Source: Dyella choica (lineage in GTDB: Bacteria; Pseudomonadota; Gammaproteobacteria; Xanthomonadales; Rhodanobacteraceae). Taken from it: 64,000 nt of DNA. Below, piece after piece: positions 22,860 to 45,627 of this stretch; position 1 is the first letter of the stretch, and every line of letters starts with the position of its first letter. The translations under genes and the position numbers were made by a program. The DNA lies in NCBI RefSeq assembly GCF_003977665.1, contig NZ_RYYV01000004.1, positions 124,001 through 188,000 on the forward strand, read 5' to 3'. The notes under the pieces were generated by a model that worked only from the letters and a program-made list of their open reading frames with translations, was not told the DNA's origin and made no database searches.

Positions 22860-23792
22860 ATGCGCCATTACCCTCCGAACTTTGCACGGATCAGCCGATA
22901 CCGATCCTATTCGTCCCTGTCCCCGCTGCGCTGGGCCACCGTGGGCGTCACCACCTTGCTGGCCGGCTGCCACCTGGCGCTGTTTGCCCCGGGCGGCGAC
23001 ATCGGCGTACAGGAGCGCCACCTGATCATCGTGTCGCTGGCACTGATGCTGTCCGTGGTGATCCCGGTCATCGCGTTGACGTTCTTGTTCTGCTGGCGCT
23101 ACCGAGCCACCAACAAGCGAGCCACCTATGCCCCGACCTGGGCGCATTCCACCACCATCGAATGGGTGGTGTGGGGCATTCCCTGCGTGATCGTGCTGTT
23201 CCTCGCGGTGCTGATCTGGGGTACGACACACTCGCTCGATCCTTATCGCCCCTTGGCTTCGAAGACTCCACCCGTACGAGTGCAGGTGGTCGCGCTGAAC
23301 TGGAAATGGTTGTTCATCTATCCCGACTACCGCATTGCCACGGTCAACCAGCTGGTAGTGCCCGCGAAGACGCCGATCGATTTTGAATTGACGGCCGATT
23401 CGATCATGAACTCGTTCTTCATCCCGCGCCTGGGCAGCCAGGTCTACGCGATGGCAGGCATGCAGACGCAGTTGCATCTGATTGCCGACCAGGCGGGCAC
23501 GTATCGCGGCATGTCCTCGGCCTTCAGCGGACCCGGCTTCTCGGACATGCACTTCGAGGTCAAGGCGACCTCGGAGGCGGATTTCCGCGCCTGGGTGGCC
23601 AGCGCCCGCAACGGCTCGAACAAGCTCACGCACGACGGCTATCTCGCGCTCGCCAAGCCCAGCGTAAACAGCAGCCCCATGTTTTATGCGAGCGTCGAAG
23701 ACGGCCTGTTCGAGCAGGTGGTGAATCAATACATGCCCGGCATGAAAGGCATGCCCGGCATGCACAACGCCATGACCCAGGCCAAGGAGTAA
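22860..23792 (+). CDS. cyoA: Quinol oxidase subunit II (CyoA-type lipoprotein)
   Basis: Subunit II of a heme-copper quinol oxidase, 310 residues. The N-terminus carries a lipobox (TTLLAGC, Cys37). Two membrane helices follow ([25 protein letters not shown] and [22 protein letters not shown]), then a cupredoxin domain with [17 protein letters not shown] and [18 protein letters not shown]. The CuA-ligand cysteines are absent (the loop reads [16 protein letters not shown]), which marks a quinol and not a cytochrome c oxidase. Six bases separate it from cyoB. The C-terminus ends in [14 protein letters not shown], a Met-rich tail. Confidence 0.95.
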
Positions 23793-23797
23793 CCGTC

Positions 23798-25813: not shown

Positions 25814-25815
25814 TC

Positions 25816-26418
25816 ATGAGCAACCCCTCTCTCTCCGCCACGCACGATTCAGCACATCACGACGCTTCATCCCAGACCACGGCAGGGTTCTGGGTCTACC
25901 TGATGAGCGACTGCCTGATTTTTGCCGTGTTGTTCGCCACGTTTGGCGTCCTGGTAGGCAATACAGCCGATGGCCCGGCGGGCCGCGACATCTTCAGCCT
26001 GCCCTATGTGGCTGGCGAAACGGCGCTGTTGCTGCTGAGCAGTTTTACCTTCGGTGCCGGCATGCTGAGCGCTCGCGCGGGCCGTCGCGGGCCACTGCTG
26101 GCATGGCTGGTCACCACAGCGCTGCTCGGCGCCGCGTTCGTCGGCATGGAACTGCATGAATTCGCCGCGCTCGTTCACGACGGTGCCGGCCCGGGCGTCA
26201 GCGCTTTCCTGTCGGCGTATTTCACCCTGGTCGGCACGCACGGCCTGCATGTCACGCTCGGCATATTGTGGCTCGGCGTCATGCTGCACCAGGCGTGGCA
26301 CTACGGCCTGGATGAGGTGGTGCTGCGCCGGCTCGCCTGCCTCAGCATGTTCTGGCACTTCCTCGACCTGATCTGGATCTGCGTCTTCACCTTCGTCTAC
26401 CTGCGGGCGTTTCTATGA
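25816..26418 (+). CDS. cyoC: Quinol oxidase subunit III (CyoC)
   Basis: Subunit III, 200 residues with five membrane helices: FWVYLMSDCLIFAVLFATFGVL, LPYVAGETALLLLSSFTFGAGML, LLAWLVTTALLGAAFVGMELHEF, YFTLVGTHGLHVTLGILWLGVM and WHFLDLIWICVFTFVYLRAFL. The motif MELHEFAALVHDGAGP and GTHGLHV are conserved in the family. It overlaps cyoD by an ATGA junction, so the four genes form one operon. Confidence 0.95.
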   Translation: MSNPSLSATHDSAHHDASSQTTAGFWVYLMSDCLIFAVLFATFGVLVGNTADGPAGRDIFSLPYVAGETALLLLSSFTFGAGMLSARAGRRGPLLAWLVTTALLGAAFVGMELHEFAALVHDGAGPGVSAFLSAYFTLVGTHGLHVTLGILWLGVMLHQAWHYGLDEVVLRRLACLSMFWHFLDLIWICVFTFVYLRAFL

Positions 26419-26783
26419 ACAGTTCTTCTACTCATTCTGTTGCAGGTCAGCCCCAAGCCGACGGGCATGGCGACATGAAATCCTATTTTGTCGGCTTTGC
26501 GCTTTCGCTGGCGCTGACCGCGGCTTCCTTCGCCACCATCATGTCCGATATCGTGCCCCACTCGTGGCGGCTCGGCTCAATGGTCGCCCTGTGCGTGATC
26601 CAGTTGCTGGTGCAATTGGCGTATTTCCTCCATCTGGGCACCGGCAAGAGCCAGGCGCAGAATACGGCCATTTTCGCCTGCACCGGCTTGCTGATCGTGA
26701 TCGTGGTGGCGGGTTCCTTGTGGGTGATGCACAACGCCAACATCAACATGATGCCGACTCAGGCCATCAGCCAGAATGAGTGA
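26415..26783 (+). CDS. cyoD: Quinol oxidase subunit IV (CyoD)
   Basis: Subunit IV, 122 residues, three membrane helices: KSYFVGFALSLALTAASFATIM, WRLGSMVALCVIQLLVQLAYFLHL and TAIFACTGLLIVIVVAGSLWVMHNANINMM. The HLG motif and LVQLAYFLHLG fit CyoD. It assists assembly of the copper site. It ends the cyo operon; a hairpin follows at 26789-26808 before the convergent DipZ-like gene. Confidence 0.93.
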   Translation: MNSSSTHSVAGQPQADGHGDMKSYFVGFALSLALTAASFATIMSDIVPHSWRLGSMVALCVIQLLVQLAYFLHLGTGKSQAQNTAIFACTGLLIVIVVAGSLWVMHNANINMMPTQAISQNE

Positions 26784-26820: not shown

Positions 26821-28542
26821 TCAACCGAAGGTGAAGGCGTAAGCTTGCACGCCGGCATCGAGGAAGAGGATTTCGAAGCTGCGCTCGCCGCTACCGCCGG
26901 CTTGCCGCACAAGCTGGTAGAGGCGCTGCGCACTGACCGTACCGTTGCCATCTGCATCGACATCCACACCATGATCGGCGCCGGGCGCCTTGCCATCGAT
27001 CAGTACACGAAAACGCACCGGCTTGCCGTCACGGCCCAGGCCCATCACCAAGTGCAAGTCGCGGCCACGGAAGCGATAGACGATGCGGCCAGGGGCGCTG
27101 TCGAGCCGTGCATTTTCATCGCTTACCGTCCAGCTTCCGTCGAGCGCCCACTGGTTGGCCTTCAGCGACTGAGGTGTGTGGTACGCGAAGCTCTTGTCTT
27201 GCGCTGCCGGGCCACCGGCAAAGTTTTCGGTGCGCGCATAGCCCAGGTAGGTTTCCGGTGAGAGACCGGCGCCGCCGGAGCCGGTGGCCTGCGCACCTTG
27301 CGCGTTCGGCTGCACATAGCCGGCGGGCAGGTTCTTCTGGCCAGCTTCAGCGAGCAGCTCGCGGATGACATCCTCGCTCTGCTCATAGCCGCCTTCGCCA
27401 AAATGATGATGGCGGATGCGCCCCTGCGCGTCGACGAAGTAATGCGCAGGCCAATACTCGTTGTCGAAGCCTTTCCAGATGATATAGCTGTTGTCGAGCG
27501 CGACCGGATAGTCGACGCCCAGGTTCTTCACGGCGTTGCTAACGTTGCGCGGGTCCTTTTCGAAGGCGAACTCGGGCGCGTGTACGCCGATCACCACCAG
27601 GCCGTGATCCTTGTATTTGTCGGCCCAGCCGCGCACGTAAGGCAGCGCGCGGATGCAGTTGATGCAGGAATAGGTCCAGAAATCGACGAGGACCACCTTG
27701 CCGCGCAACGACTGTGTTGTGAGCACCGGGCCGTTGAGCCATTGGGTGGCGCCTTCGAGCGAAGGCATCTCTCCTTCCACCGGCAAGGGTTCGCCGGCTT
27801 TGACGACGGATTGCACCGCAGGCGCAGCTCGTACGGCAGCGACCAGCATCTGTTCTATGCCGCCGGTGCTGGCGAGTGACACGCGAGTCAGCCATCCGGT
27901 GTCCAAGCCCAATGCAATGGCGGCAACGCCGGCCAGCACCAGTGCACCCAGGACGCGACGCACCCATTCACCGGCGCCAAGTGAACGCTTCATCAGGGCG
28001 AACACGCGCCCGCCGACGACAAGCGCCAATGCAAGCGATGTAGCGGCGCCGGTTGCATAGACGAGTAGCAATAAAGTGGTCTGGACACTGGCGCCATTGA
28101 GCGCCGCCCCGGTGAGCAGGAGGCCCAGGACGGGACCTGCGCACGGCGCCCATAGCAGTCCGGTGGCCACGCCCAGGCCCGCCGCCGAGAGCACCGAATC
28201 GTTCTCGCTGCCGTCACGCTGGGAAAGCTGGTTGCCGAGCGCCACGAAGGGCCGGCCAATCCACTCGGCCACGTGACTGGAAAGCAAAGTAAGGCCAAGT
28301 ACTGCAAGCACAGCCAAGGCAATGATGCGGCCATATTGGTTGGCGTGAACAGCCCAGCCTCCGCCTACTGCGGCCAGCGTGGCGACCACGGCAAAGGTGA
28401 GCGCCATGCCCGCCAGCATGGGCAGTCCATTGCGCACAAACGGACGGTCTGCCCGTGCGAAGACGAACGGCAGCACCGGCAGGATGCACGGACTAAGGAT
28501 GGTCAGAACGCCACCCAGATAAGCAAGGATCAATAAAAGCAT
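26821..28542 (-). CDS. DipZ-like CcdA-thioredoxin fusion
   Basis: A 573-residue thiol-disulfide protein. Residues about 1-240 form a CcdA/DsbD-type membrane domain with two conserved Cys sites (ILSPCILPVLPF, Cys19; LWAPCAGPVLG, about residue 133), which pass electrons across the membrane. A periplasmic TlpA-like thioredoxin domain follows (VVLVDFWTYSCINCIRALPYVRGW, CxxC near residues 291-294). The C-terminal 150 residues form a carbohydrate-binding-like module typical of DipZ (TENFAGGPAAQDKSFAYHTPQSLKANQWALDGSW). It is convergent with the cyo operon. A separate TlpA-like protein with the same CINC site is at 56276-56827. Confidence 0.9.
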   Translation of the reverse strand: MLLLILAYLGGVLTILSPCILPVLPFVFARADRPFVRNGLPMLAGMALTFAVVATLAAVGGGWAVHANQYGRIIALAVLAVLGLTLLSSHVAEWIGRPFVALGNQLSQRDGSENDSVLSAAGLGVATGLLWAPCAGPVLGLLLTGAALNGASVQTTLLLLVYATGAATSLALALVVGGRVFALMKRSLGAGEWVRRVLGALVLAGVAAIALGLDTGWLTRVSLASTGGIEQMLVAAVRAAPAVQSVVKAGEPLPVEGEMPSLEGATQWLNGPVLTTQSLRGKVVLVDFWTYSCINCIRALPYVRGWADKYKDHGLVVIGVHAPEFAFEKDPRNVSNAVKNLGVDYPVALDNSYIIWKGFDNEYWPAHYFVDAQGRIRHHHFGEGGYEQSEDVIRELLAEAGQKNLPAGYVQPNAQGAQATGSGGAGLSPETYLGYARTENFAGGPAAQDKSFAYHTPQSLKANQWALDGSWTVSDENARLDSAPGRIVYRFRGRDLHLVMGLGRDGKPVRFRVLIDGKAPGADHGVDVDADGNGTVSAQRLYQLVRQAGGSGERSFEILFLDAGVQAYAFTFG

Positions 28543-28648
28543 ACGGGCGATATCCGTGGTGGATGCATGGAGCGATGCAGGCTGCCGACTTGCGGCGAAG
28601 CCGGCTTCCAGCGGAAGCCGACATGCCTCCCTTGCGGCAGACCAGCTA

Positions 28649-29407
28649 TCAGTCTGTCTGTTTTGCGGCGGCCTCGATCACTCGAGCGACCGCAGCCGGC
28701 TGGGAAATGAACGAAGCATGGCTTCCGGCGACTTCGGTGATTTTCGAACCCGCACGTTGGTACATCCAACGCTGCAGCTCGGGGCTCACGACACGATCCT
28801 CGGTAGTGAGGATGGCGTAGCTGGGCTTGGTTCGCCATGCCGCCACGCTGATCGGCGTGCCCATGGCTTTCTGGGCGAGCGGCTGTTGCGAATCGGCCAG
28901 GAACTGGGCTTCCGCTGCCGGAAGATCCGCCGCATAGGTCGCGCGGAATTTCGCCGCCGGTATGTAGAAATACTTGTCCGGGGTTGCGCGCATCGCGTCG
29001 TTGGGCGCAACGAACTTCGACAGCAGTTGGCCGCCGGCTTCGCCGACATCGGGCTGCAGCGCCGATACATAGACGAGCGCCTTGACCTTCGCGTCGACAC
29101 CGGCCTGCGTGATGACCGAGCCGCCATAGCTATGGCCGACCAGGACGACCGAACCGTTCTGCTGGTCCAGAACGCGCCGGGTGGCGTCGACGTCGTCGGC
29201 AAGGCTGGTGAGCGGCTCCTGCACGATGGTCACGTGAAAACCATCCTTGGCAAGAATGTCGTGAACGGCACGCCAGCCCGAACCATCCACCAGGGCGCCA
29301 TGCACGATGACGATGTCTTTCGCGGCCGGCTGCGGCGCGGCCTGCGCAGTCGCGCCGCCCAGCGCAAGCAGCAACGCCAACGCAGTCTTCTTTCGTAGTG
29401 TAAGCAT
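28649..29407 (-). CDS. Secreted alpha/beta hydrolase
   Basis: A 252-residue exported hydrolase with a signal peptide (MLTLRKKTALALLLALGGATAQAA). The HGALVDGSGW oxyanion region and nucleophile Ser93 in GHSYGGSV are clear, and His is near the end in GSHASFISQPAAV. It is of the methylesterase/EstC-like type related to plant salicylate-binding esterase. Substrate is unknown. It lies 140 bases downstream of a monooxygenase gene on the same strand and is divergent from the GlxA-type regulator beyond it, so the three may form a regulated detoxification unit. Confidence 0.87.
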   Translation of the reverse strand: MLTLRKKTALALLLALGGATAQAAPQPAAKDIVIVHGALVDGSGWRAVHDILAKDGFHVTIVQEPLTSLADDVDATRRVLDQQNGSVVLVGHSYGGSVITQAGVDAKVKALVYVSALQPDVGEAGGQLLSKFVAPNDAMRATPDKYFYIPAAKFRATYAADLPAAEAQFLADSQQPLAQKAMGTPISVAAWRTKPSYAILTTEDRVVSPELQRWMYQRAGSKITEVAGSHASFISQPAAVARVIEAAAKQTD

Positions 29408-29547
29408 TTCTTTTCTCCAAGAGGGTTTGCATACCCGGCATTTGCTCGGGCCATCTGCGGCCGGGCAAACGCTGGGCGTTTAGGGTTGTGTGTAAAGGGC
29501 GTCCAGCCCCCGCGCATTTGCACGCAGGCGAACTGGACGCAGAGACG

Positions 29548-29853
29548 TCAGGGCAGTTCGTTCTTCATTGCCAGCACATCGATCGGCTCCACCGACGGCG
29601 TCGTGGCCAGCAAGTCGCTGGCACGTGCCATCAGGGCATTGGCCATATCGCCGTTCAGATGCGCCTGGCGGCCAGCTTCGTTCGCAAAGGCGTCGAACAC
29701 GCCAAATGTCGTAGGTGACAACTTGATCGCGAACCAGATCGGCGTTCCCGCCTCCCGGTTCGTCATTTCCAGGCCGGCGGCCAGAAAGTCCGCTACCGCC
29801 TGTTCCTTGCCCGGCTTGGCTTCGAGCCGGACCAACAATCCGCATTTGACCAT
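29548..29853 (-). CDS. ABM-domain quinol monooxygenase-like protein
   Basis: A 101-residue antibiotic-biosynthesis-monooxygenase (YgiN-like) protein. Features: VKCGLLVRLEAKPGKEQAVADFLAAGLEM, TPIWFAIKLSPTTFGVFDAFANEAGRQAHLNGDMANALMARA, the usual ferredoxin-like layout with an HLNG motif. These small dimeric proteins oxidise quinols or degrade reactive aldehydes without cofactor. The gene starts at 29853 and is divergent from the GlxA-type regulator (110 bases between), and it precedes the esterase. Confidence 0.88.
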   Translation of the reverse strand: MVKCGLLVRLEAKPGKEQAVADFLAAGLEMTNREAGTPIWFAIKLSPTTFGVFDAFANEAGRQAHLNGDMANALMARASDLLATTPSVEPIDVLAMKNELP

Positions 29854-29963
29854 CGTCTTCTCTCCCGTTTGGGTTTAGGTGGGCTGCGCAGTGGGAGGAA
29901 CTTTACAAACGGGTCGCCCGGGCCAATACTGTCCCGATTGACATATTTGATATCGATCGCGCC

Positions 29964-30926
29964 ATGAAAATTGCCATCCTTGCCCTGGAAGGGATGTTCG
30001 ATACCGGGCTGACGACGGTGCTCGATGCGCTGGCGACGGCCAATACGCTCGCGCAGTGGACCGGCATACCCACGCCGGGTTTTGACTTCACGTTGATGGG
30101 TGTGCGCCCGCAAGTGCGCACTGCGCTCGGGCTGCAGGTGCCGGTATGCGAAGTGGCGGACACGCCGACTCCCGATTGGGTGATCGTGCCGGCGCTCGCC
30201 AACATCGTGCCGGAGCGGCTGTTACCCACGCTTGCGCGCAGCGACGTGGTGGATGCGCTTGGCGTATTGCGTCGTTGGCATGACGCCGGCGCCCGCCTTG
30301 CGGCAGCTTGTACCGGCACGTTCATCCTGGCCGAAAGCGGCCTGCTCGACGGCTGCGAAGCCACCACCACCTGGTGGCTCTCACCGGTGTTCCACCAACG
30401 CTATCCGGATGTGCGCCTGGATGCGCATCGCCTGGTCGTTCCCAGCGGCGTCATGGTGACGGCAGGCGCAGCGCTCAGTCACCTGGACCTTGCCCTGTGG
30501 CTGATCCGCAACAACAGCCCCGAACTGGCCGCCCTCGTCGCCAAATACCTGGTTTTCGACTCGCGCCTGTCCCAGTCGGGCTATGTGATTTCCGATCACC
30601 TCGCCCACTCCGATCCCTTGATCGAGCGTTTCGACCGTTGGGTGCGTGAACGGCTTGATTCGTCGCTCGCGCTCGATTCGATCGCCGAAGCGCTAGGAAC
30701 GAGCAAGCGCACTTTGTCGCGGCGTCTCGCCGACGTATTGGGCAAAACGCCCTTGGAATACATCCAGGATCTACGCATCGAGCGCGCGGTTCATTTGCTG
30801 AAAACCAGCAAGCACAGCGTCGATCAGATCGCCGAACAGGTCGGGTATGCGGACGGCGTAACCCTGCGCACCCTGCTGCGCCGGCGGCTTGGCAAGGGTA
30901 TCCGCGAGTTGCGTCCCAGGGACTGA
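29964..30926 (+). CDS. GlxA-type transcriptional regulator, second copy
   Basis: A 320-residue regulator with a DJ-1/PfpI-like sensor domain (IAILALEGMFDTGLTTVLDALATANTLAQ; Cys in AAACTGTFILAESGLLDG) and an AraC-type helix-turn-helix pair (DSIAEALGTSKRTLSRRLADVLGKTPLEYIQDLRIERAVHLL, then DQIAEQVGYADGVTLRTLLRRRLGKGIRELR). The divergent monooxygenase and esterase genes are its most likely targets. It is not a recent duplicate of the 14912-15847 regulator; the two are clearly different in sequence. Confidence 0.9.
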   Translation: MKIAILALEGMFDTGLTTVLDALATANTLAQWTGIPTPGFDFTLMGVRPQVRTALGLQVPVCEVADTPTPDWVIVPALANIVPERLLPTLARSDVVDALGVLRRWHDAGARLAAACTGTFILAESGLLDGCEATTTWWLSPVFHQRYPDVRLDAHRLVVPSGVMVTAGAALSHLDLALWLIRNNSPELAALVAKYLVFDSRLSQSGYVISDHLAHSDPLIERFDRWVRERLDSSLALDSIAEALGTSKRTLSRRLADVLGKTPLEYIQDLRIERAVHLLKTSKHSVDQIAEQVGYADGVTLRTLLRRRLGKGIRELRPRD

Positions 30927-30998
30927 GCATTTGCGTCCTGGCGCGGCCCACCCGTACGGCTTCATTGAGACCCGCAAAGCAGCGACCTTCAATGCGGC

Positions 30999-31063
30999 GT
31001 AGGCTGGGATGGAATCCCAGCACTCATTGCACCTTTTGTGCTGGGATTGTCATCCCAGCCTAC
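30999..31063. repeat. REP pair
   Basis: GTAGGCTGGGATGGAATCCC and GCTGGGATTGTCATCCCAGC + CTAC, with a spacer of about 20 bases. It lies after the GlxA-type regulator. Confidence 0.88.
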
Positions 31064-31149
31064 GCTTGACGAGAATCAATACCCTGCTGCTGCGTGCCTC
31101 ATCAATGCCGTCGTAGGCGGACAATGTTGTGGCGAGTCCAGTTATTCCT

Positions 31150-31716
31150 TCACTCGTCCTTCCGAATCCCTTTGTCGAGATCTGCTCGCAAGCCTGTCCA
31201 CGTCGCCGCCATTACGTCGCCGAGCACACGGATGACGGCGAGAGCTTCACCCTTCGATAGATTGTGCCGGCTAGTCGAGGAGACCGTTCTGCCCCATGGG
31301 AACTTGCCGTCGGCATTCCAGTGGACGTCATTGGGTAGTTCGCCGCTACCGGTCTTCGGAATGGGAATTTCCGGATTGTTGACGTTAGGCGGCGTCCAGC
31401 TTGCCTCTGTGATGCTGCCGCTAGTGCTGATGCCAACTCCGCCAGGAGCGGGCGGCGCGGTCTTGGTGGAACCAGGAATTGGTTTGCCATCCTTGTCGGT
31501 CCACCACCAGCGGGTTATCCCGGTAACCCGATCGTGGCGTCCGGACTGGCAATCGAAGTCGAAACCTATGTCATGTGCGCCATCCGGCGACTCGCCACCC
31601 TCGCCAGGGATGGCGGCACCTTTGTCGTCGATGCATCGGCTTGGCGGGTGCGCGCATGAGGTATCCCTGGTCTCACGCCTTCTGCAGCGTATAGGACGAG
31701 CACCAGCCCTTCGCAT
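31150..31716 (-). CDS. Uncertain ORF downstream of HiPIP
   Basis: An open frame of up to 188 codons whose first 15 codons overlap the end of the HiPIP gene, so its true start is probably further in; no ATG with a clear ribosome-binding site was found. The sequence has a Pro/Gly/Ser-rich middle (STKTAPPAPGGVGISTSGS, WTPPNVNNPEIPIP) and WWWTDKDGKPIPG. It may be the remnant of an exported protein whose 5' end was lost, since SCAHPPSRC near residue 20 resembles the start of a mature lipoprotein. No family is recognised. Confidence 0.4.
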   Translation of the reverse strand: MRRAGARPIRCRRRETRDTSCAHPPSRCIDDKGAAIPGEGGESPDGAHDIGFDFDCQSGRHDRVTGITRWWWTDKDGKPIPGSTKTAPPAPGGVGISTSGSITEASWTPPNVNNPEIPIPKTGSGELPNDVHWNADGKFPWGRTVSSTSRHNLSKGEALAVIRVLGDVMAATWTGLRADLDKGIRKDE

Positions 31717-32005
31717 TCACGGCCTTGCCCGGGAATAGCTGGCAGATGCCGTAACCCGCGTCGGGACCACGATAGAACTGGCAGTTGGCACATAGACTCC
31801 CGACCCGGTACAGCGCGTTCTTGGATGCGGTGGCGTCTTCGATGTAATTCATCGCCTTTGCGGTGGGGTCCGCATCGGTAAGGTGCGGCAGTTCTCCGGC
31901 ACGCACGAACAGGGGTATGCCACCCATGCAGACGCCACCCGCGGTGATGGCCAACAGCTGCAGGAAGCGGCGGCGGGATTCGATGCTTCGGTTGGGCAGT
32001 GACAT
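31673..32005 (-). CDS. High-potential iron-sulfur protein (HiPIP), Tat-exported
   Basis: A 110-residue periplasmic HiPIP that carries one electron on a 4Fe-4S cluster. A twin-arginine signal is present (SRRRFLQLLAITAGG). The cluster ligands are Cys72, Cys75, Cys88 and Cys102, in SLCANCQFY, YGICQLF and GWCSSY, exactly the HiPIP spacing. HiPIPs link quinol-oxidising complexes to terminal oxidases or, in Acidithiobacillus, join iron oxidation (Iro). The gene is divergent from the cytochrome-porin gene with 151 bases between, sharing a palindromic control region. Confidence 0.93.
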   Translation of the reverse strand: MSLPNRSIESRRRFLQLLAITAGGVCMGGIPLFVRAGELPHLTDADPTAKAMNYIEDATASKNALYRVGSLCANCQFYRGPDAGYGICQLFPGKAVNAKGWCSSYTLQKA

Positions 32006-32060
32006 GGCCGTTCCCCACGTGATTGACTGGATGGTGCCAATCTAGCCATCGCCCGCATCG

Positions 32061-32084
32061 TTCGTTTGACGTAGATCAAACGAA
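32061..32084. promoter_or_regulatory. FNR/Anr-like box in divergent promoter
   Basis: A perfect 9-base inverted repeat with a 6-base spacer; its core CGTTTGACGTAGATCAAACG contains TTGAC-GTAG-ATCAA (32066-32079), one change from the FNR/Anr consensus TTGAT-N4-ATCAA. It lies between the divergent HiPIP and cytochrome-porin genes, 55 bases from the HiPIP start and 72 from the other. Confidence 0.6.
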
Positions 32085-32156
32085 GCCCGCGCAAGACGCG
32101 CAAGCTTTCCCCAGCTCCTTGCGGAGCGTAGACGCCCATCACGTAGGGGAAAAAAC

Positions 32157-33542
32157 ATGGCCGGCAAAACCACGTGCGTGCGCACCCTGAGCCGATACCT
32201 CTCCTGCAGCACTCTGGCTTTTGCCCTGGGCTTGCTGGTGCTGCTGCTCGCCCCTTCCACCAGCCATGCCGTACCGTCTTTTGCGCGCCAGACGCACCAG
32301 CCCTGCACCGCCTGCCACATCGGCGGCTTCGGACCGCAGCTCACCCCTTTCGGCCGGCAGTTCAAATTGATGGGCTACACGCTTAGCGTAGGTAACGACA
32401 CCAAGGTACCGCTGTCGCTCATGCTGGTCGAAACGTATACGCATACCGCCAAAGCGCAGACCTCGCCGCCGGCCAACAACTTCAGCACCAACGACAACGT
32501 CGAGCTGCAACAGGCGTCCATCTTCGTGGTCGGCCGCCTTGCCGATAACCTTGGCATCCTCGCGCAAGGTACTTATTCGCAGAACGGCGGTTTGCTTGGC
32601 TGGGACAACAGCGACCTGCGCTATGCCCGGTCCATCACGGTCGCGGGCCATCCGGCGATCTGGGGCCTGTCGCTCAACAACAATCCCAGCCTGACGGATG
32701 TGTTCAATACCGCGCCGGCCTGGCAGTACCCCTACATGTCATCCAATCTCGCCTTTGGATCGCCGGCCACTCCCATTCTGATTGGCGCTCTCGCGCAGCA
32801 AGTCATCGGCTTGAATGCCTATACGCAATGGAACAATGCGCTGTATCTGGAAACCGGCATCTACCGTTCGCTTTCGCCCGCGTTCCTGCGCGACGTCAAT
32901 GCCCATTTCACCGGACGATTGGAGGGCGTCTCGCCTTATGCACGCATGGCGTATACGTGGAATCTTCCCAACGGCAACGTCGAGCTGGGCGGATTTGTTT
33001 TCGAGACGGCGCGGGGGCAGGTCGGCGCCAATGCGCAAGGCAAACCCGCTGCCATGGCCGGCCCCACCGACAAGTTCCATGATTATGGCGTGGATGCCAG
33101 CTACCAGCTCTTGAACGGCAGTCACCACATCGTCACTGTCAACGCCCTGTACCTGACCGAGCAGCAAAGGCTGGATGCCACGTATTTGTCAGGCGGCTCA
33201 TCGAACCTTCACAACAACCTGCATGCCCTCAACGCCAACGCCAGCTATTGGTACAAGAACACCTGGGGCGTGACGCTGGGCGCGTTCGCCAACGACGGCA
33301 GCAAGGACCTGATCCTGTACGGCAACAACGGCAGCCCCAACACCAACGGCGGCATCATGGAGTTGAACTGGAATCCTTTCGGCCAGGCCGATTCCTGGGC
33401 TCAGCCGTATGCAAACGTGCGTCTGGGCTTGCAGTACACCTGGTACACGCGCTTCAGTGGCCTCGTCTACAACGTGGATGGCGCAGGACGGCGTGCGTCG
33501 GACAACAACACGCTCTATTTCTACGTGTGGCTGGCGTTCTGA
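32157..33542 (+). CDS. Cyc2-like fused cytochrome-porin
   Basis: A 461-residue outer-membrane protein. After a signal peptide (ending SHAVPS) comes a single c-type heme site, Cys50-x-x-Cys53-His54 in RQTHQPCTACH, within the pattern VPSFARQT...CTACH...LTPFGRQFKLMGY. That is the signature of Cyc2-type cytochrome-porins of iron oxidisers and their relatives. The remaining 400 residues alternate as amphipathic beta strands rich in Tyr, Asn and Gly (NVELQQASIFVVGRLADNLGILAQGTYSQNG, ALYLETGIYRS, GVSPYARMAYTWNL) and end in Phe (FYVWLAF), the usual last residue of a barrel. It would move electrons across the outer membrane; the donor is unknown. Iron oxidation is inference from the family. Confidence 0.8.
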   Translation: MAGKTTCVRTLSRYLSCSTLAFALGLLVLLLAPSTSHAVPSFARQTHQPCTACHIGGFGPQLTPFGRQFKLMGYTLSVGNDTKVPLSLMLVETYTHTAKAQTSPPANNFSTNDNVELQQASIFVVGRLADNLGILAQGTYSQNGGLLGWDNSDLRYARSITVAGHPAIWGLSLNNNPSLTDVFNTAPAWQYPYMSSNLAFGSPATPILIGALAQQVIGLNAYTQWNNALYLETGIYRSLSPAFLRDVNAHFTGRLEGVSPYARMAYTWNLPNGNVELGGFVFETARGQVGANAQGKPAAMAGPTDKFHDYGVDASYQLLNGSHHIVTVNALYLTEQQRLDATYLSGGSSNLHNNLHALNANASYWYKNTWGVTLGAFANDGSKDLILYGNNGSPNTNGGIMELNWNPFGQADSWAQPYANVRLGLQYTWYTRFSGLVYNVDGAGRRASDNNTLYFYVWLAF

Positions 33543-33576
33543 TCCGCTGGACAGTGGCGGGAGCAAGTCCAGTCGA

Positions 33577-34446
33577 TTACGCCTGATCCGGTCCGCGCAT
33601 GGCGGCATGGTATTTCTTGCGAATGTCCGCCAGGTCGACCCGCGGCGGCGGCGTCTTCAAATCCATCTCGCTCATCGTCTCGGCGACGATTTGCGAGATG
33701 GCCAGGTCGCGAAACCACTTGTGGTTGGCAGGGATCACGAACCACGGCGCAAGCCTGGTGCTGGTGCGCTCGATCGCTTCCTCGTAGGCCTGCATGTATT
33801 CGCCCCATAGCGCGCGCTCAGCGTAGTCGCTCTCGCTGATCTTCCACTGCCGCGCCGGATCTTCGAGTCTGCGCTTGAAGCGCTCAAGCTGCTCTTCGGG
33901 GCTGATATGCAAATAGAACTTCAGGATACGCGTGCCGTTTTGTGCCAGCATCTTCTCGAAGTCGTTGATCAGTTCGTAGCGCCTGGACCACACCTCGCGC
34001 GGCACCAGCTCGTGGACGCGCACCACCAGCACGTCTTCGTAGTGGGAGCGGTTAAAGATGACCACTTCGCCACGGCCGGGCGCGCGCTGGTGGATTCGCC
34101 AAAGAAAGTCATGCGCGAGATCTTCCGCGCTGGGTTGCTTGAAGCCAAAGACCCGCGTCCCCTGCGGATCCATTCCGGTGAAGATGTGCCGGATGACGCC
34201 ATCCTTGCCTGCCGCATCCAACCCCTGCAGCACGATGAGCAGCGATTGGCTCGCATCGGCGTGCAGCAGATATTGCCATTGGCCGATCTGCGCCAACGAT
34301 TCGGCAATCACCAGGGCGGCCTTTTCGTGCGACTTGTGCTTACCCTTGTAGGCAGGATCGATATCGCCAAGCTGCGGTTTCGCGCCCGGCTTCACCAAGA
34401 ATTCCTCGCGGTAACCCATATCCACGCTCCCGGCGGTCATCGGCAT
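33577..34446 (-). CDS. ppk2: PPK2-family polyphosphate:nucleotide phosphotransferase
   Basis: A 289-residue PPK2 enzyme that moves phosphate between polyphosphate and nucleotides. The Walker A motif is GLDAAGKDG (residues 75-83), followed by IRHIFTGMDPQGTRVFGFKQPSAEDLAHDFLWRIHQRAPGRGEVVIFNRSHYEDVLV, with the FNRSHYED Walker B-like site near residue 130, and WKISESDYAERALWGEYMQAYEEAIERT. The spacing matches one-domain PPK2. Class (AMP or ADP preference) cannot be settled by eye. It is convergent with the cytochrome-porin gene and upstream of it on the map sits a small gene on the same strand. Confidence 0.92.
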   Translation of the reverse strand: MPMTAGSVDMGYREEFLVKPGAKPQLGDIDPAYKGKHKSHEKAALVIAESLAQIGQWQYLLHADASQSLLIVLQGLDAAGKDGVIRHIFTGMDPQGTRVFGFKQPSAEDLAHDFLWRIHQRAPGRGEVVIFNRSHYEDVLVVRVHELVPREVWSRRYELINDFEKMLAQNGTRILKFYLHISPEEQLERFKRRLEDPARQWKISESDYAERALWGEYMQAYEEAIERTSTRLAPWFVIPANHKWFRDLAISQIVAETMSEMDLKTPPPRVDLADIRKKYHAAMRGPDQA

Positions 34447-34530
34447 GGGAATGGTTAATGTATCGGAGCTGTCCCCGGAAATCTAAGGAGGTCTGAAAAA
34501 ATCAGAGCTTCCCTAATCCGTGGACCGTGA

Positions 34531-34800
34531 CTACGGGTGTTTCGGCTCAGTACCCGCCGAGCACCAGATGGTTTTCCAGAAGCGGTCGCCCTCGTCCCGC
34601 ACATGGATCTGCGCCGCCCTGCCGGCACTGACGCGATAGTCCGCCATGCGGCGGGCGTGGGCGATGGCGGAGGCCTGGTCTTCATGCACGGCAAGGCAAT
34701 GGGAAGCCGGCCCGGCGCAGATCAGCCATGACCCGCGTTCGATGGCCGCGTAGTGCAGCAACACGATGTAGAAATCGATCACGTCATCGGCCGGGGACAC
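34531..34800 (-). CDS. Small protein of unknown function, FNR-type promoter
   Basis: An 89-residue protein, with the start placed at GTG 34800 (VSPADDVIDFYIVLLHYAAIERG). The frame is open to 34905, but the perfect FNR-type box at 34858-34871 lies inside that extension and would put transcription near 34823-34820. GAAGG lies nine bases before the GTG, and a CAGTAT sequence at 34832-34827 fits a -10 site. Its middle (SHCLAVHEDQASAIAHARRMADYRVSAGRAAQIHVRDEGDRFWKTIW) resembles short DUF2188-like proteins; that is weak. No enzyme motif is seen. It lies between PPK2 and phosphoketolase. Confidence 0.6.
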   Translation of the reverse strand: MSPADDVIDFYIVLLHYAAIERGSWLICAGPASHCLAVHEDQASAIAHARRMADYRVSAGRAAQIHVRDEGDRFWKTIWCSAGTEPKHP

Positions 34801-34857
34801 AGCGTGAAACCTTCGCAACCATGACAATACTGTGTCATGCCTGGGCCCAGAGGGGCG

Positions 34858-34871
34858 TTGATCCAAATCAA
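34858..34871 (-). promoter_or_regulatory. Perfect FNR/Anr box
   Basis: TTGATCCAAATCAA matches the FNR/Anr consensus TTGAT-N4-ATCAA at every fixed position. The centre is about 41.5 bases from a plausible start of transcription for the 89-residue protein (minus strand), the standard class II activator spacing. On the other side it is about 150 bases from the phosphoketolase ATG. Confidence 0.7.
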
Positions 34872-34952
34872 GTCCGCCCTTCCAGGAAACCGCATTGCCA
34901 TGCATGCGTGCGAAACACTTGACGCCGCGATTGTCATCCAGCCCACCGTGCC

Positions 34953-34966
34953 TTGATGTATGTCAA
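34953..34966 (+). promoter_or_regulatory. FNR/Anr-like box ahead of phosphoketolase
   Basis: TTGATGTATGTCAA, one change from the consensus TTGAT-N4-ATCAA. Its centre is 63 bases before ATG 35023, so transcription would start near 35001. The ATG at 34960 lies inside the box, which argues against it as a start codon. Confidence 0.6.
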
Positions 34967-35022
34967 ACGACGTTTCCGCGCACGGCGTAAACCTGTCCCA
35001 GAGTCAGCCGCGGAAATTTCCC

Positions 35023-37410
35023 ATGCAAAACCCCTTGTCGCCACACCAATTGCAGCGGATGGATGCGTATTGGCGCGCGTCCAATTACCTCTCGGTCGGC
35101 CAGATCTATCTGCGCGACAACCCCTTGCTGGAAAAACCACTGGAACGCGCGCATATCAAGCCGCGCCTGCTCGGGCACTGGGGCACCACGCCGGGCCTGA
35201 ACCTGCTGTATGTGCATCTGAACCGGCTGATCAAGCAGCATGATCTCAACATGCTGTTCATGACCGGCCCCGGCCATGGCGGTCCTGCGCTGCTCGCACA
35301 AACGTATCTGGAAGGCTCCTACACCGAACGCTATCCAGCGGTCGAACGCAACCGTCATGGGATGGCGCGCCTGTTCCGCCAATTCTCCTGGCCATACGGC
35401 GTACCCAGCCATGTGGCGCCGGAAACACCCGGCTCAATTCACGAGGGAGGCGAACTCGGCTACTCGCTGGCGCATGCGTTCGGCGCGGCATTCGACAACC
35501 CGGACCTGATCGTGGCTTGCGTGGTCGGCGATGGTGAAGCGGAAACCGGCGCGCTGGCAGCGAGCTGGCATTCCAACAAGTTCCTCAACCCGGCGCATGA
35601 TGGCGCGGTGCTGCCGATCCTGCATCTGAACGGTTTCAAGATCGCCAACCCTACTCTTCTTTCGCGCATCACCCGTGAAGAGTTGATCGACCTGTTCCAT
35701 GGCTACGGCTATGAGCCATGGTTCGTCGAAGGCAACGATCCGTTGGTTGTTCATCAAGATCTGGCTGGTGCATTCGACCGCATCCTGGCCAGCATCCGGG
35801 CCATTCAGGAGGCCGCACGCTCCGGCCAGAGCGATGCGCGTCCGCGCTGGCCGATGCTGGTTTTGCGCACCCCCAAGGGCTGGACCGGACCTGATTTCGT
35901 CGACGGGGTGCAAGTGGAAGGCACATGGCGTGCGCACCAGGTACCGCTGGCGCAGTTCGATAAGCCTGCCCACTTGGCGCAGTTGGAAGCCTGGATGAGG
36001 AGCTACAAGCCCGAAGAGCTGTTCGATGACGATGGTCGCTTGCGCGAGGAATACGCTGCACTGGCACCGACCGGGCACCGCCGCATGGGTTCGAACCCGC
36101 ACGCAAACGGTGGCGAACTGCTCAAGCCGCTCGTCATGCCGCATTTTCGCGAGCATGCCGTCGACGTGCCGCAACCGGGCGCCGTCGAGGCGGAAGCCAC
36201 GCGTGTGCTGGGCACATTCCTGCGCGAAGTGATGCGGCTCAACCTCTCGCAGCGCAATTTCCGCCTGTTCGGCCCGGACGAGACGGCGTCCAACCGGCTG
36301 GATGCGGTGTATGAGGTGTCCGGCAAGGCCTGGCAAGCCGGCTTCGAAGCCCATGACAATCATTTGAGTGCCGACGGCCGGGTCATGGAGGTACTCAGCG
36401 AACATCTGTGCGAAGGCTGGCTGGAGGGCTATCTGCTCAGTGGCCGCCACGGGGTTTTTTCATGCTACGAGGCCTTCATCCACATCGTCGACTCGATGTT
36501 CAACCAGCATGCCAAGTGGCTGAAAGTGAGTCGCCACATTCCCTGGCGCGCGCCGGTCGCGTCGCTCAATTACCTGCTTACCTCGCATGTGTGGCGGCAG
36601 GATCACAACGGCTTCTCGCACCAGGACCCGGGCTTCATCGATATCGTGGCGAACAAGAAGGCGGAGGTGGTCCGCATTTATTTGCCACCGGATGCCAATT
36701 GCCTGCTCTCGGTGGCGGATCACTGCCTGCGCAGCCGTGATTACGTCAATTTGATCGTGGCCGGCAAGCAGCCCGAGTGGCAGTGGCTGGATATCGATGC
36801 CGCGGTCATGCATTGCGCCGCCGGTGCCAGCATCTGGGAGTGGGCCAGCAACGACGACGGCGATCCGGACGTGGTGATGGTCTGCGCCGGTGATGTGCCC
36901 ACGCTCGAATGCCTGGCTGCCGTGACACTGCTACGCGGCTATTTGCCCGATATCCGCATTCGGGTGGTGAACGTGGTGGACTTGATGGTGTTGCAGCCGC
37001 AGTCCGAGCATCCGCACGGCTTGTCCGATCGCGACTTCGACGCGCTGTTCACCTCGGGCAAACCGGTCGTCTTCGCCTTCCACGGCTACCCTTCCTTGAT
37101 CCACAAACTTACCTACCGCCGCAGCTGCTCGGATCGCATCCATGTACGCGGCTACAAGGACGAAGGTACGACCACCACGCCGTTCGACATGGTGGTACTC
37201 AACAACCTGGACCGTTATCAACTGGCACTGGACGCCATCATGCGCATTCCGCGTTTCAACAAGTACGTCGGTCACGCGATCGAGCGTTACTGGTCGATCA
37301 TGGAAAGGCACAAGCTGTACATCAGCGAACACGGCGAGGACATGCCGGAGGTACGGTCCTGGCGCTGGCCTGCGCATGGATTGGCGGGCAAACAGGCCGT
37401 CGAGGTGTAG
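35023..37410 (+). CDS. xfp: Xylulose-5-phosphate/fructose-6-phosphate phosphoketolase
   Basis: A 795-residue thiamine-diphosphate enzyme that splits xylulose 5-phosphate (or fructose 6-phosphate) into acetyl phosphate and a shorter sugar phosphate. Key regions: [14 protein letters not shown] (about residue 82-), [41 protein letters not shown] with the ThDP site, and [35 protein letters not shown]; the C-terminus has the XFP C-terminal domain. I placed the start at ATG 35023 (MQNPLSPHQ) because an FNR-type box overlaps the upstream ATG 34960 and 795 residues is the family length. Acetyl phosphate made here could feed ATP formation when oxygen is low. No acetate kinase gene is adjacent. Confidence 0.95.
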
Positions 37411-37429
37411 GCAGGGATCATCGCCCTGC
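37411..37429. terminator. Hairpin directly after phosphoketolase stop
   Basis: Stem GCAGGG / CCCTGC with a 7-base loop, starting one base after the stop codon. Terminator or 3' stabiliser; no long T-run follows. Confidence 0.45.
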
Positions 37430-37523
37430 TCTACAGGCTATTTCAACACGTCTCGTCAATCCGGCCACGCCCACTGCCGTCCTGGGAAAATCGCACAGCT
37501 CAAGCCGTGCCCGAAGCAAGCTC

Positions 37524-37545
37524 CTCCCCCTGCTTGCAGGGGGAG
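37524..37545. repeat. Palindrome CTCCCCC..GGGGGAG
   Basis: Hairpin CTCCCCC-TGCTTGCA-GGGGGAG in the gap between the convergent phosphoketolase and thiolase genes, close relative of the nested palindromes at 7405-7428. CACGTACGGGAGG follows it at 37568. Confidence 0.7.
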
Positions 37546-37591
37546 AAAGATAGCGCGGCCCCTAATACACGTACGGGAGGAAGCTGATGCA

Positions 37592-38773
37592 TCAAAGCGC
37601 TTCAAGAGCCAGCGCAATACCCTGCCCGCCACCAATGCACAGCGTCACCACGCCACGGCGCAATCCTTCGCGCTGCATGGCATGCAGCAGGCGAGTGGTG
37701 AGAATCGCGCCAGTTGCGCCGATCGGATGCCCGTGCGCCACCGCACCGCCTTCCACATTGACGCGTGCATGGTCCAGGCCCAGCTCATTGGCCACGATGA
37801 TCGCGATGGCGGCGTAGGCTTCGTTGATCTCGAAGCGCTCGACCTCGCCGAGTTGCCAGCCGGCGCGCTGCACCGCCAGCCGCACCGCCGAAACCGGCGC
37901 GATGCCGAACATGCCCGGCTCCACCGCCGTTATGGCAAAACCGGCCAGCCGCGCCACCGGCGCCAGCCCGCGCGCCTCGGCCACACCGCGCTCGGCCACC
38001 AACATCGCCGCCGCACCGCTGTTCAAACCAGGCGCATTGCCGGCGGTGATGCTGCCGTCTTCGCGAAAGGCGGGCTTCAGGCGCGCCAGCGCTTCGAACG
38101 TGGTATCCGGCCGCGGCGCCTCGTCGCGGTCGAAGCGTTCGACGCCTTTGCGCGTGGGAACTTCCACCGGCACGATCTCGGCCTCGAAATGCCCGGCATC
38201 GCGCGCTGCGACGAAGCGTTGCTGCGAGCGCAACGCCCAGCGGTCCTGCGTTTCGCGATCCACCTTATGTTTCGCGACCAGGTCCTCGGTATGCCAGCCC
38301 GAATGCTTCTGCGAGAACGCATCATGCAGGCCATCGAGCAACATGCTGTCGTAGATCTGCGCGTGGCCCATCCGATAACCCCAGCGGCCGTTGCTCACCA
38401 GGTACGGGGCGCGATCCATGTTCTCCATGCCGCCGGCCAGCATCAGCTGGCCCTGCCCGCTCAGGATGTCCTGCGCGGCGGAGACGATCGCCTGCGCGCC
38501 CGAACCGCACACGCGGTTCACCGTCATCGCCGGCACCGACACGTTCAATCCTCCGTGGATCGCAGCCTGGCGCGCCGGATTCATGCCGCTACCTGCCTGC
38601 ACCACTTGCCCCATCACGACGCCGTCGACGGCATCGGCGGCAAGGCCGGCGCGCTCCAGCACCGCGCGGATAACCGTCGCGCCGAGGGTGGTGGCGGGCA
38701 CGTCGCGCAAGGCGCCGTTGAAGCCGCCGATCGCGGTGCGAAGAGGATGGCAAAGCACGATATCGCGTTGCAT
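37592..38773 (-). CDS. Acetyl-CoA acetyltransferase (thiolase)
   Basis: A 393-residue thiolase. The acyl-binding Cys is in NRVCGSGAQAI (about residue 90), the His in AHGHPIGATGA and the second Cys in TLCIGGGQG, the full thiolase set. The start at ATG 38773 gives MQRDIVLCHPLRTAIGGFNG; the open frame to 38941 overlaps other features. It is 28 bases after the outer-membrane efflux gene on the same strand, so it may be co-transcribed, although its function (condensing two acetyl-CoA or splitting acetoacetyl-CoA) has no clear link to efflux. Confidence 0.93.
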   Translation of the reverse strand: MQRDIVLCHPLRTAIGGFNGALRDVPATTLGATVIRAVLERAGLAADAVDGVVMGQVVQAGSGMNPARQAAIHGGLNVSVPAMTVNRVCGSGAQAIVSAAQDILSGQGQLMLAGGMENMDRAPYLVSNGRWGYRMGHAQIYDSMLLDGLHDAFSQKHSGWHTEDLVAKHKVDRETQDRWALRSQQRFVAARDAGHFEAEIVPVEVPTRKGVERFDRDEAPRPDTTFEALARLKPAFREDGSITAGNAPGLNSGAAAMLVAERGVAEARGLAPVARLAGFAITAVEPGMFGIAPVSAVRLAVQRAGWQLGEVERFEINEAYAAIAIIVANELGLDHARVNVEGGAVAHGHPIGATGAILTTRLLHAMQREGLRRGVVTLCIGGGQGIALALEAL

Positions 38774-38801
38774 GGGGAAACTCCGTTGGGGGAAAGAGAG
38801 G

Positions 38802-40298
38802 TCAGCGGCTTGCTGTGCGCGTATCGGCAACAGCTGCCCAGCCGCCGCCAAGCGCACGGAAAGTAGCAACCGCAGCGCGCGCATCATCGGCATGTACGCG
38901 CGCCAGCTGGTCGCGCGAGGCGAGCAATTGGCGATCTTCATCCAGCACTTCTAGCAGGCTGACGGCACCGCCTTTGTAGGCATCCTCGGCCGCCGCACGC
39001 GCACGCTCGTGCGCGTCGACTTCCTTGGCCAGCACGTCGTGCTCATGTTCGAGTTCGCTCAAGGCGACGATCGCGTTTTCGACATCTTCGGTGGCGCGCA
39101 GCATCGATTGGCGATACGTAGCCAGTGCTTCCGCGTTCGCGCCCTTGGCCTGCGCCACTTCGGCATCCACGCGACCGAAGTCGAACAGGCGCCAATGCAG
39201 GCCGAGCGCGGCTTGCGGCTGGAACGCTGCGGAGGTGAACAAGCTGCCGGTATGCAGGCTCTCCAATCCCAGCAACGCACTCAGCGATACCTTGGGGTAG
39301 TACTCGGCCGTCGCTTCGCCGATGCGCGCATTCGATGCGGCCAGCCGGCGCTCCGCTGCGATCACGTCCGGGCGTCGCTGCAACAGCATCGCCGGGCCAC
39401 CCCCGGTTTTGATGGAAGGCACGACGAAGTTCTGCGCGCTGGCGAGCACTTCGTTGCGATACGCGCCGGGCGCAGCCCCCATCAGCACATCGAGTCGATT
39501 GAGCTGCTGTTCGAGTTCGATTTGCAGGGGCGGCAGGATGGCGCGTGCCTGCATCACCAGCGCTTCGGCCTGCGCCTGTTCGCGCGCTGTGGCCAGGCCG
39601 CCGGCAAGGCGCAGTTGCACCAGATCCAGCAAACGCTGTTCCGTATCCACCTGCTGTTGCGCCAGCGCGATACGCGCCTGCGCACCGCGCACGCGGAAAT
39701 ACGCATCAGCCGCTTCCGCCGCGAGCGAAACGCGTACGCCTACGCCGGAGGCCTCCGCCGCCTGCGCTTCCGCCTGCGCTGCTTCAACGCCGCGGTGCAG
39801 GCCGCCGGCCAGGTCCAGTTCCCAGCTCGCACCCGCACTGATGGTTTCCAGCGTCTGATTGCGACGGTAGCCCGGGTGGGCGCTGCCGATTTCGCCGAGC
39901 GGTCCTTCAACTGACTGATACTGACGCGCCACCTGCGCATCCAGGCTGCCTTGCGGCAGCAGAGCAGCGCCCGCTTCCCGTGCGGCCGCGCGCGCCTGAT
40001 CGACACGCGCCATCGCGGCCGCCAGGTCAAGGTTCTGCGCGGTCACGCGACCGATGATGCGCGCAAGTTCCGCATCGTCGAAGCCCGTCCACCAGGTGTC
40101 GAGCGCTGGCGCGGCCGACGCAGCCGTGCGCTGAGCCAGTGGCTGCTGCCCGACGTAGTGCTCATTCACCGACACCGCCGGCCTGGTGTAGTCGGGGCCG
40201 ACCATGCAGCCGGCCAATCCCGTGGCGGCCATGGCCAGCCATACGGTGGGTGCGAGCGCGCGGCGCACGGCGGGAACAAGCAGGGATAACGAACGCAT
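38802..40298 (-). CDS. NodT-type outer-membrane efflux lipoprotein
   Basis: A 498-residue TolC/NodT-family outer-membrane channel. It begins with a signal and lipobox (ATGLAGCMVGPDYTRPAV), typical of OprM/NodT. Repeated helical segments with LAAAMARVDQARAAAREAGAALLPQ and TVVAEAADAYFRVRGAQARIALAQQQVDTEQRLLDLVQLRLAGGLAT are clear. It completes a tripartite pump with the EmrA and EmrB-type proteins encoded upstream on the same strand; 10 bases separate it from EmrB. Confidence 0.92.
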   Translation of the reverse strand: MRSLSLLVPAVRRALAPTVWLAMAATGLAGCMVGPDYTRPAVSVNEHYVGQQPLAQRTAASAAPALDTWWTGFDDAELARIIGRVTAQNLDLAAAMARVDQARAAAREAGAALLPQGSLDAQVARQYQSVEGPLGEIGSAHPGYRRNQTLETISAGASWELDLAGGLHRGVEAAQAEAQAAEASGVGVRVSLAAEAADAYFRVRGAQARIALAQQQVDTEQRLLDLVQLRLAGGLATAREQAQAEALVMQARAILPPLQIELEQQLNRLDVLMGAAPGAYRNEVLASAQNFVVPSIKTGGGPAMLLQRRPDVIAAERRLAASNARIGEATAEYYPKVSLSALLGLESLHTGSLFTSAAFQPQAALGLHWRLFDFGRVDAEVAQAKGANAEALATYRQSMLRATEDVENAIVALSELEHEHDVLAKEVDAHERARAAAEDAYKGGAVSLLEVLDEDRQLLASRDQLARVHADDARAAVATFRALGGGWAAVADTRTASR

Positions 40299-45621: not shown

Positions 45622-45627
45622 GTGAAC

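Follow-up and report, generated by a model that had tools for sequence, protein, structure and literature searches.

Cytochrome-porins of the Cyc2 type have been proposed as a marker gene product for microbial iron oxidation, yet homologues are also present in organisms for which iron oxidation is not known (PMC7029218). Here we describe a Cyc2-like gene and a gene for a high-potential iron–sulfur protein (HiPIP), which are oriented divergently with 151 bp between them in a 64,000-nucleotide stretch from the genome of the soil bacterium Dyella choica (Rhodanobacteraceae; contig NZ_RYYV01000004.1, positions 124,001 to 188,000; this whole stretch is referred to as ‘the window’, and coordinates are given in its numbering). 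We assign a probability of about 0.6 to the reading that this pair constitutes a Cyc2-type electron conduit working inward, with a dedicated HiPIP and an FNR/ANR-type switch. The parts themselves, the motif, the fold model, the conserved pairing, the linked divergence of the two proteins, the exchange of the carrier and the enrichment of the boxes were all obtained by computation.

Several described systems come close to this locus. The Cyc2 of the Acidithiobacillus rus operon and its relatives (cluster 2) have the signature motif, the single heme and the porin barrel in common with the protein from the window, which is also homologous along its whole length to the Cyc2 encoded in a cox/rusticyanin-like operon of a genome from the same class (G409). 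In contrast to the rus operon, the carrier encoded here is a HiPIP: in the genome of D. choica neither the rusticyanin model (E ≤ 1e-10) nor RuBisCO (E ≤ 0.01) gave a match, and no other CxxCH protein is encoded among the genes of at least 80 residues listed around the Cyc2-like gene (26821–40298). The Cyc2 proteins of neutrophilic iron oxidisers (cluster 1, Mariprofundus/Gallionellaceae) likewise comprise an AXPXFAR signature, a CxxCH site and a 16-stranded barrel (PMC8406198), whereas possible cluster 1/3 homologues in the class genomes match only the N-terminal part of the protein and branch apart from it. PioABC of Rhodopseudomonas palustris is an outer-membrane conduit that passes electrons to a HiPIP as well (PMC10654088), but it relies on a decaheme cytochrome, PioA, and on the larger barrel PioB, whereas a single heme site is fused here to a barrel of 16 strands; the absence of a further CxxCH protein from the region delimited above speaks against a combination of decaheme cytochrome and separate porin.

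For Bradyrhizobium, a Cyc2 cluster with genes for a HiPIP and three cytochromes c has been reported (Percak-Dennett 2017, cited in PMC5566968). Cyc2 and HiPIP genes are thus found together there as they are here, but in the window the HiPIP gene stands alone and divergent, with zero cytochromes c among the neighbouring called genes. The citing paper also describes two Thiomonas strains that oxidise Fe(II) and have Cyc2-like genes, with FB-6 and FB-Cd being named elsewhere in its text (PMC5566968). Rhodanobacteraceae Cyc2 homologues have been placed in one network with Acidithiobacillus Cyc2 (PMC10654088), and a genome from weathering rock that is close to Dyella japonica contains a Cyc2 homologue (PMC7767972). 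Since both Cyc2 in Dyella and a Cyc2–HiPIP cluster in Bradyrhizobium had already been reported, the neighbourhood is not new as such. In the open-licence literature we found no report of a multi-copy divergent Cyc2–HiPIP pair and none of FNR-type boxes or control upstream of cyc2; one paper mentioning Cyc2 names FNR through the title of an E. coli study in its references (PMC7236192).

Results

Motif, fold and relatives of the Cyc2-like protein

The Cyc2-like gene (32157–33542, + strand) encodes 461 residues with the N-terminal motif AVPSFARQT-x3-CTACH-x5-PQLTPFGRQFKL. Its first element, AVPSFARQT (residues 38–46; 32268–32294, + strand), ends three residues ahead of CTACH and agrees with the Cyc2 consensus AXPXFAR[Q/K][T/Y] (PMC8406198). 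CTACH itself (residues 50–54; 32304–32318, + strand) is the sole CxxCH site of the protein, and the C-terminal residue is Phe, so that the preliminary description of a 461-residue protein with one CxxCH in a Cyc2 pattern and a barrel ending in Phe is confirmed. The PXL motif is present as PQL, spaced five residues after CXXCH compared with four in the definition, and the chain length exceeds the minimum of 365 residues that goes with a fused porin of about 16 strands in Cyc2 membership. In an alignment of 57 sequences T46, C50, C53, H54, P60, L62, T63, G66, F69 and K70 are invariant. The structure model exhibits 16 strands (barrel domain, 32412–33539, + strand) with a mean pLDDT of 86 and a helix (residues 17–31) in its low-confidence N terminus, and the structure matches listed for it (Foldseek, VIA) include outer-membrane barrels, among them porins. 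With ten plug residues invariant in 57 sequences and a 16-stranded model, the motif is not a product of chance.

Of the computational checks proposed in the preliminary description, structure prediction gave a model with a barrel behind a putatively heme-bearing plug. Searches of Pfam and NCBIfam, and likewise of PDB sequences, returned nothing up to E = 1, and it is the full-length Cyc2 relatives and the motif that place the protein with Cyc2. The assignment hence rests on motif, fold model and relatives. Taken together, these support that the protein belongs with the Cyc2 cytochrome-porins and not with a heme-less porin family; an unrelated heme-less porin is ruled out by the invariant residues of the heme plug.

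Of 561 relatives found in GTDB genomes, the best 80 loci were considered, a set that may omit records from the genome of the window itself. Among these 80 the closest proteins are from Dyella flagellata and D. nitratireducens (89% identity) and D. acidisoli (84%), followed by two Rhodanobacter (70%) and D. jiangningensis (69%); the genomes G104, G125 and G066 are placed in the genus of the window. A Cyc2-like match is present in 81 of 147 genomes of the family (E ≤ 1e-5), and the Cyc2 profile matches 54 of 369 genomes of the class (E ≤ 1e-10). In G409, a full-length Cyc2 (30% identity over 478 columns) lies in one gene run with coxB, coxA, coxC, coxD, ctaA and ctaB, as read by eye, and with a gene for a rusticyanin-like protein. 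The two rusticyanin-like proteins of G409 score 137 (the one in the run) and 113 bits, both below the model cut-off of 146.7; at E ≤ 1e-10 the rusticyanin model matches five of the 369 class genomes, just one of which exceeds the cut-off, and only G409 among the five also matched the Cyc2 profile A1 (E ≤ 0.01). The homologue from Thiomonas sp. FB-6 is 44% identical to the protein from the window. Some class genomes contain N-terminal-only homologues, which branch outside the full-length group and which we tentatively take to be Cyc2 of cluster 1/3. In a quick tree of 66 rows, which carries a long-branch warning, the protein from the window groups with the Cyc2 of G409 and of FB-6 against nine such N-terminal-only homologues.

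The genome of the window holds a second Cyc2-like gene, whose product is 33% identical to the first. This gene (L104:7287–9712, contig C14) is tightly flanked by genes for a cytochrome b561 ahead and a monoheme cytochrome c behind, beyond which an ECF-type sigma factor and a subtilase are encoded; a similar order is observed in several genomes of the family. In another genome (G008:C2:578234–579564) a Cyc2-like gene appears as two separate matches in two frames.

The HiPIP and its pairing with Cyc2

The HiPIP gene (31673–32005, − strand; 110 residues) encodes a protein that matches the Pfam family HIPIP (PF01355) with E = 5.7e-22 and 78.2 bits (cut-off 22), and 12 distinct PDB sequences match it at E ≤ 0.01 (best 1.3e-13). 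The pattern C-x2-C-x12-C-x13-C (Cys 72, 75, 88 and 102; 31700–31792, − strand) was read directly and in alignment with solved HiPIPs, and the Tat signal model TIGR01409 scores 18.5 bits (cut-off 16.7) on a signal peptide with the motif SRRRFLQ (31958–31978, − strand). The protein is predicted to be exported to the periplasm via Tat, and its preliminary description as a Tat-exported HiPIP with four-cysteine spacing thus holds.

Conservation of the pair was assessed in 139 Cyc2 loci, which were reduced to 123 nonredundant loci by dropping 15 duplicates and one locus (L098) whose best open reading frame is devoid of CxxCH; these scans extend over the fetched stretches, many of which end at contig ends. 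The HiPIP profile scan revealed a HiPIP gene adjoining Cyc2, always divergently, at ten distinct loci (the window, L065–L072 and L130, with L125–L129 and L131 being duplicates of pair loci obtained by another route), all from Dyella and two Rhodanobacter. The only other HiPIP within the 139 scanned stretches is a weak match about 5 kb from Cyc2 in L074. Individual genomes hold several pairs, three in G104 and two in G066.

A tree confined to HiPIPs of the Rhodanobacteraceae separates the paired HiPIPs from 49 others by a single branch (support 87/78, recovered in 84% of bootstrap trees; 94/82 in a smaller HiPIP set), where the 49 comprise the best-scoring loci and 20 picked among the matches listed, and the divergent HiPIP of L074 was excluded. 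Pairwise distances of paired HiPIPs and of their Cyc2 partners are correlated with r = 0.88, a value reached in 0 of 20000 label permutations. Pairs from the same genome sit in different subgroups, and do so alike in the HiPIP and the Cyc2 tree, which is less easily explained by shared descent alone than the correlation is. The evidence supports the HiPIP being an evolutionarily linked partner of the Cyc2-like protein. Chance neighbourhood is ruled out by the recurrent pairing, the HiPIP branch, the linked distances and the carrier counts beside Cyc2 (see below). HiPIPs are present in 140 of the 147 family genomes, and the genome of the window encodes two above the model cut-off, which have 45 of about 75 core residues in common; the paired HiPIP looks like a diverged copy of the housekeeping HiPIP of the family.

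Carriers encoded beside Cyc2

Within 300 bp of Cyc2, a carrier gene is found in 54 of the 123 nonredundant loci. These carriers are of three kinds, namely 37 monoheme c550-like cytochromes (the query scores 74 bits against the NCBIfam c-550 model, which is under its cut-off), 8 diheme cytochromes c and 9 HiPIPs, and two kinds never occur together (0 loci). When the range is extended to 6 kb, a single locus (L185) holds both a c550-like and a diheme cytochrome, and among genes of the Cyc2 loci more than 2.5 kb away only 1 in 569 encodes such a cytochrome. These counts support that Cyc2-like proteins exchange electrons with a soluble periplasmic shuttle, for which the HiPIP represents the solution of Dyella and Rhodanobacter.

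In one family genome (L121:2741–7012), an fnr-like gene, the product of which bears cysteines in its N-terminal part, lies side by side with hemN and with genes for a Cyc2-like protein and a diheme cytochrome; the latter is weakly similar to the periplasmic diheme shuttle PdsA.

FNR/ANR-type boxes

The 300 bases upstream of Cyc2 were searched for the pattern TTGAT-N4-ATCAA, with 19 scrambled palindromes serving as controls. Among 124 Cyc2 upstream regions, 26 contain a perfect box and 51 a box with at most one mismatch, compared with at most 0 and 1 for the scrambles; when the nine pair loci are set aside, 20 and 42 of 114 regions have such boxes, and the control genes of the same loci yield 13 and 47 of 1037. 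The corresponding Fisher values (9e-18 and 2e-27) take no account of relatedness. When the set was thinned at random, 20 times over, to 34–39 loci no more than 60% identical, 2–7 of these had a perfect box and 8–14 a box with at most one mismatch. A second, class-wide set, which was not used to find the signal and comprises proteins at most 68% identical to those of the first set, gave 2 perfect boxes and 10 with at most one mismatch among 37 loci (scrambles at most 0 and 2; one locus with a short upstream stretch was dropped). FNR/ANR-type boxes are strongly over-represented 5′ of Cyc2.

In the window, the box TTGACGTAGATCAA (32066–32079) is located between the HiPIP and Cyc2-like genes. Six sites with at most one mismatch are present in the window, compared with a mean of 1.0 in shuffles, and the whole genome has 10 perfect sites and none for the control pattern. 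Perfect intergenic boxes are found at five pair loci (L065, L066, L067, L071 and L072), with constant half-sites and differing spacers, and the pair locus L070 has a box with one mismatch. FNR-type activators act from a box centred at −41.5. With this geometry, a possible −10 element of the HiPIP promoter, TAGATT (32039–32044, − strand), lies within one base of its expected place; the Cyc2 side is less clear. Upstream of the second Cyc2-like paralogue, no box with up to two mismatches is present in 300 bases.

One of the 10 perfect genomic sites (34858–34871) is located 5′ of the gene for phosphoketolase (34960–37410, + strand), and a second box with one mismatch (34953–34966) precedes the likely start of that gene (about 35023, as judged from relatives). 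Phosphoketolase is encoded near the pair in five of the ten pair loci (the window, L065, L066, L071 and L072). Another perfect site lies between a gene read by eye as acetate kinase and a two-component system. Elsewhere in the genome (L287, L296; contig C34, about 281–286 kb), a perfect box is positioned 5′ of a cytochrome c gene, and an atypical COX1, scoring well under the CtaD and SoxB cut-offs, follows about 3 kb past it.

Regulator and genomic context

A single query identified one Fnr-like (Crp/Fnr-type) protein in the genome, where others may have been missed. Its gene is about 3 kb from the acetate kinase box, and its recognition helix reads HETVSRAL, which we take to be of the FNR kind. 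In a scan with queries for phosphoketolase, AckA, Pta, universal stress protein (two queries), Fnr (two queries), HemN and PPK2, low-oxygen markers were found within 6 kb of Cyc2 in 12 of the 123 loci. Phosphoketolase and acetate kinase account for four loci, all of them pair loci (phosphoketolase being present also in the window), and genes for universal stress protein, Fnr and HemN lie beside Cyc2 in a few others. With markers in only 12 loci, the link to a low-oxygen neighbourhood is local, and the signal of wider reach is the box. Similar by gene content alone is the low-oxygen-activated (lxa) locus of Burkholderia cenocepacia, which encodes universal stress proteins along with a putative cytochrome c (PMC6127331). 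Polyphosphate kinase 2, which is encoded between Cyc2 and phosphoketolase in the window, was left out as a member of the module because it occurs within 6 kb of Cyc2 in 0 of the 123 other loci.

The genome encodes five heme-copper oxidase subunits I. A quinol-oxidase-like operon (22860–26783) ends about 5 kb from the HiPIP gene and comprises, according to Pfam, COX2 with an aromatic-rich motif and COX1, after which two small subunits were read by eye. Farther away, the G+C content dips locally to 0.538 (44001–46000; 0.650 and 0.612 in the flanking 2-kb blocks), and a chromate transporter gene (46895–48283) lies near this dip.

Discussion

The preliminary description had suggested that the HiPIP and the cytochrome-porin might form an electron transfer module at the outer surface of the cell. 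Of this, the kinship with Cyc2 and the linked HiPIP partner are supported by our analysis, whereas electron flow, its direction and the donor, along with heme insertion, acceptor, regulator and signal, are drawn by analogy: an Fe(II) donor, inward flow, heme insertion and a low-oxygen signal would follow from characterised Cyc2 proteins (PMC8406198) and from the type of regulon. The intergenic FNR-type box and the neighbourhood of phosphoketolase and acetate kinase were no part of that description. In such a conduit, a c-type heme would reside in the N-terminal plug of the 16-stranded outer-membrane barrel and would probably be reduced at the cell surface by a soluble donor, with Fe(II) being the likeliest. 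The electrons would then pass from Cyc2 to the dedicated periplasmic HiPIP, which would occupy the place held by a monoheme or diheme cytochrome c in other lineages, and from there to the respiratory chain of the inner membrane. The single intergenic box probably turns on both genes under oxygen limitation or a related signal, and phosphoketolase and acetate kinase may be switched on along with the pair. Since RuBisCO was not detected, the incoming electrons would sustain or supplement a heterotrophic way of life and not feed autotrophy.

Several points weigh against this proposal, which is computational throughout. The function of cluster 3 homologues is regarded as most uncertain, with verification being asked for (PMC8406198), and the signature alone does not prove Fe(II) oxidation. 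The box in the window deviates from the pattern at one position and the best site of L130 at two, the matches in L068 and L069 fall within the HiPIP start codons, and no box is present upstream of the Cyc2 of the rusticyanin operon (L216). Moreover, the Fnr-like protein aligns with no part of the Fnr model ahead of profile position 53 (131 bits; cut-off 228) and is devoid of the N-terminal part bearing the Fnr cluster cysteines, so that the signal may not be oxygen; the claim of oxygen as the signal was dropped as unproven. Support for the branch that unites the paired HiPIPs does not reach the starred level, the correlation of HiPIP and Cyc2 distances would also arise from vertical inheritance alone, and the Cyc2 tree was built by a quick procedure and carries a long-branch warning. 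The fork of 12 rows in that tree consists of the ten pair rows and of L073 and L074, neither of which has a paired HiPIP, so that loss or later gain is possible.

Alternatively, electrons might flow outward at low oxygen, leaving quinol via the HiPIP and then the cytochrome-porin for an acceptor of high potential outside the cell, alongside an acetate-forming phosphoketolase metabolism. The linkage of genes for phosphoketolase, acetate kinase and phosphotransacetylase to the pair in some pair loci fits such low-oxygen redox balancing. HiPIPs have high potentials. Cyc2 of M. ferrooxydans has 208 mV (PMC8406198). At such potentials, common acceptors such as Fe(III) oxides at neutral pH would be unfavourable. 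That the characterised Cyc2 proteins oxidise iron also argues against the outward direction, and we regard outward flow as unlikely. It appears similarly improbable that the heme plug, instead of being a respiratory entry point, equips a porin with a redox gate or with a site at which metals, peroxide or NO are detoxified, while the HiPIP delivers or withdraws electrons one at a time: the lack of a RuBisCO match in the genome and the Cyc2 homologues in organisms without known iron oxidation (PMC7029218) would agree with such a role, but the genes neighbouring Cyc2 encode soluble carriers of the respiratory kind, that is, HiPIPs or small cytochromes c.

Finally, the two genes might have only their promoter region in common, with the HiPIP transferring electrons from bc1 to an oxidase at low oxygen and the cytochrome-porin using another carrier. 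A general role of HiPIPs is indicated by their presence in nearly all family genomes (140 of 147), and a divergent promoter could coordinate unrelated functions; the linked divergence of the pair, the occurrence of several pairs per genome and the presence of other carriers at the same place beside Cyc2 elsewhere nonetheless make this explanation very improbable.

Beyond the inward conduit proposed for the window, it is tempting to speculate, albeit with considerable doubt, that Cyc2 serves heterotrophic Pseudomonadota at large as an inlet for electrons at low oxygen, under FNR-type regulation and with a periplasmic carrier that can be exchanged (cytochrome c550, diheme cytochrome or HiPIP), of which the HiPIP version of Dyella and Rhodanobacter would be a self-contained two-gene cassette copied as a unit. 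The recurrent FNR-type box and the exchangeable carrier provide a testable hypothesis for such Cyc2 copies, namely electron uptake as oxygen runs low, and in Dyella a minimal version of two genes is available in bacteria that can be cultured. The three types of carrier constitute a natural experiment on how electrons are handed over from an outer-membrane heme to the periplasm. If the low-oxygen inlet exists, Cyc2 would chiefly be a device for survival or mixotrophy of oxygen-limited bacteria and not a marker of lithoautotrophic iron oxidation.

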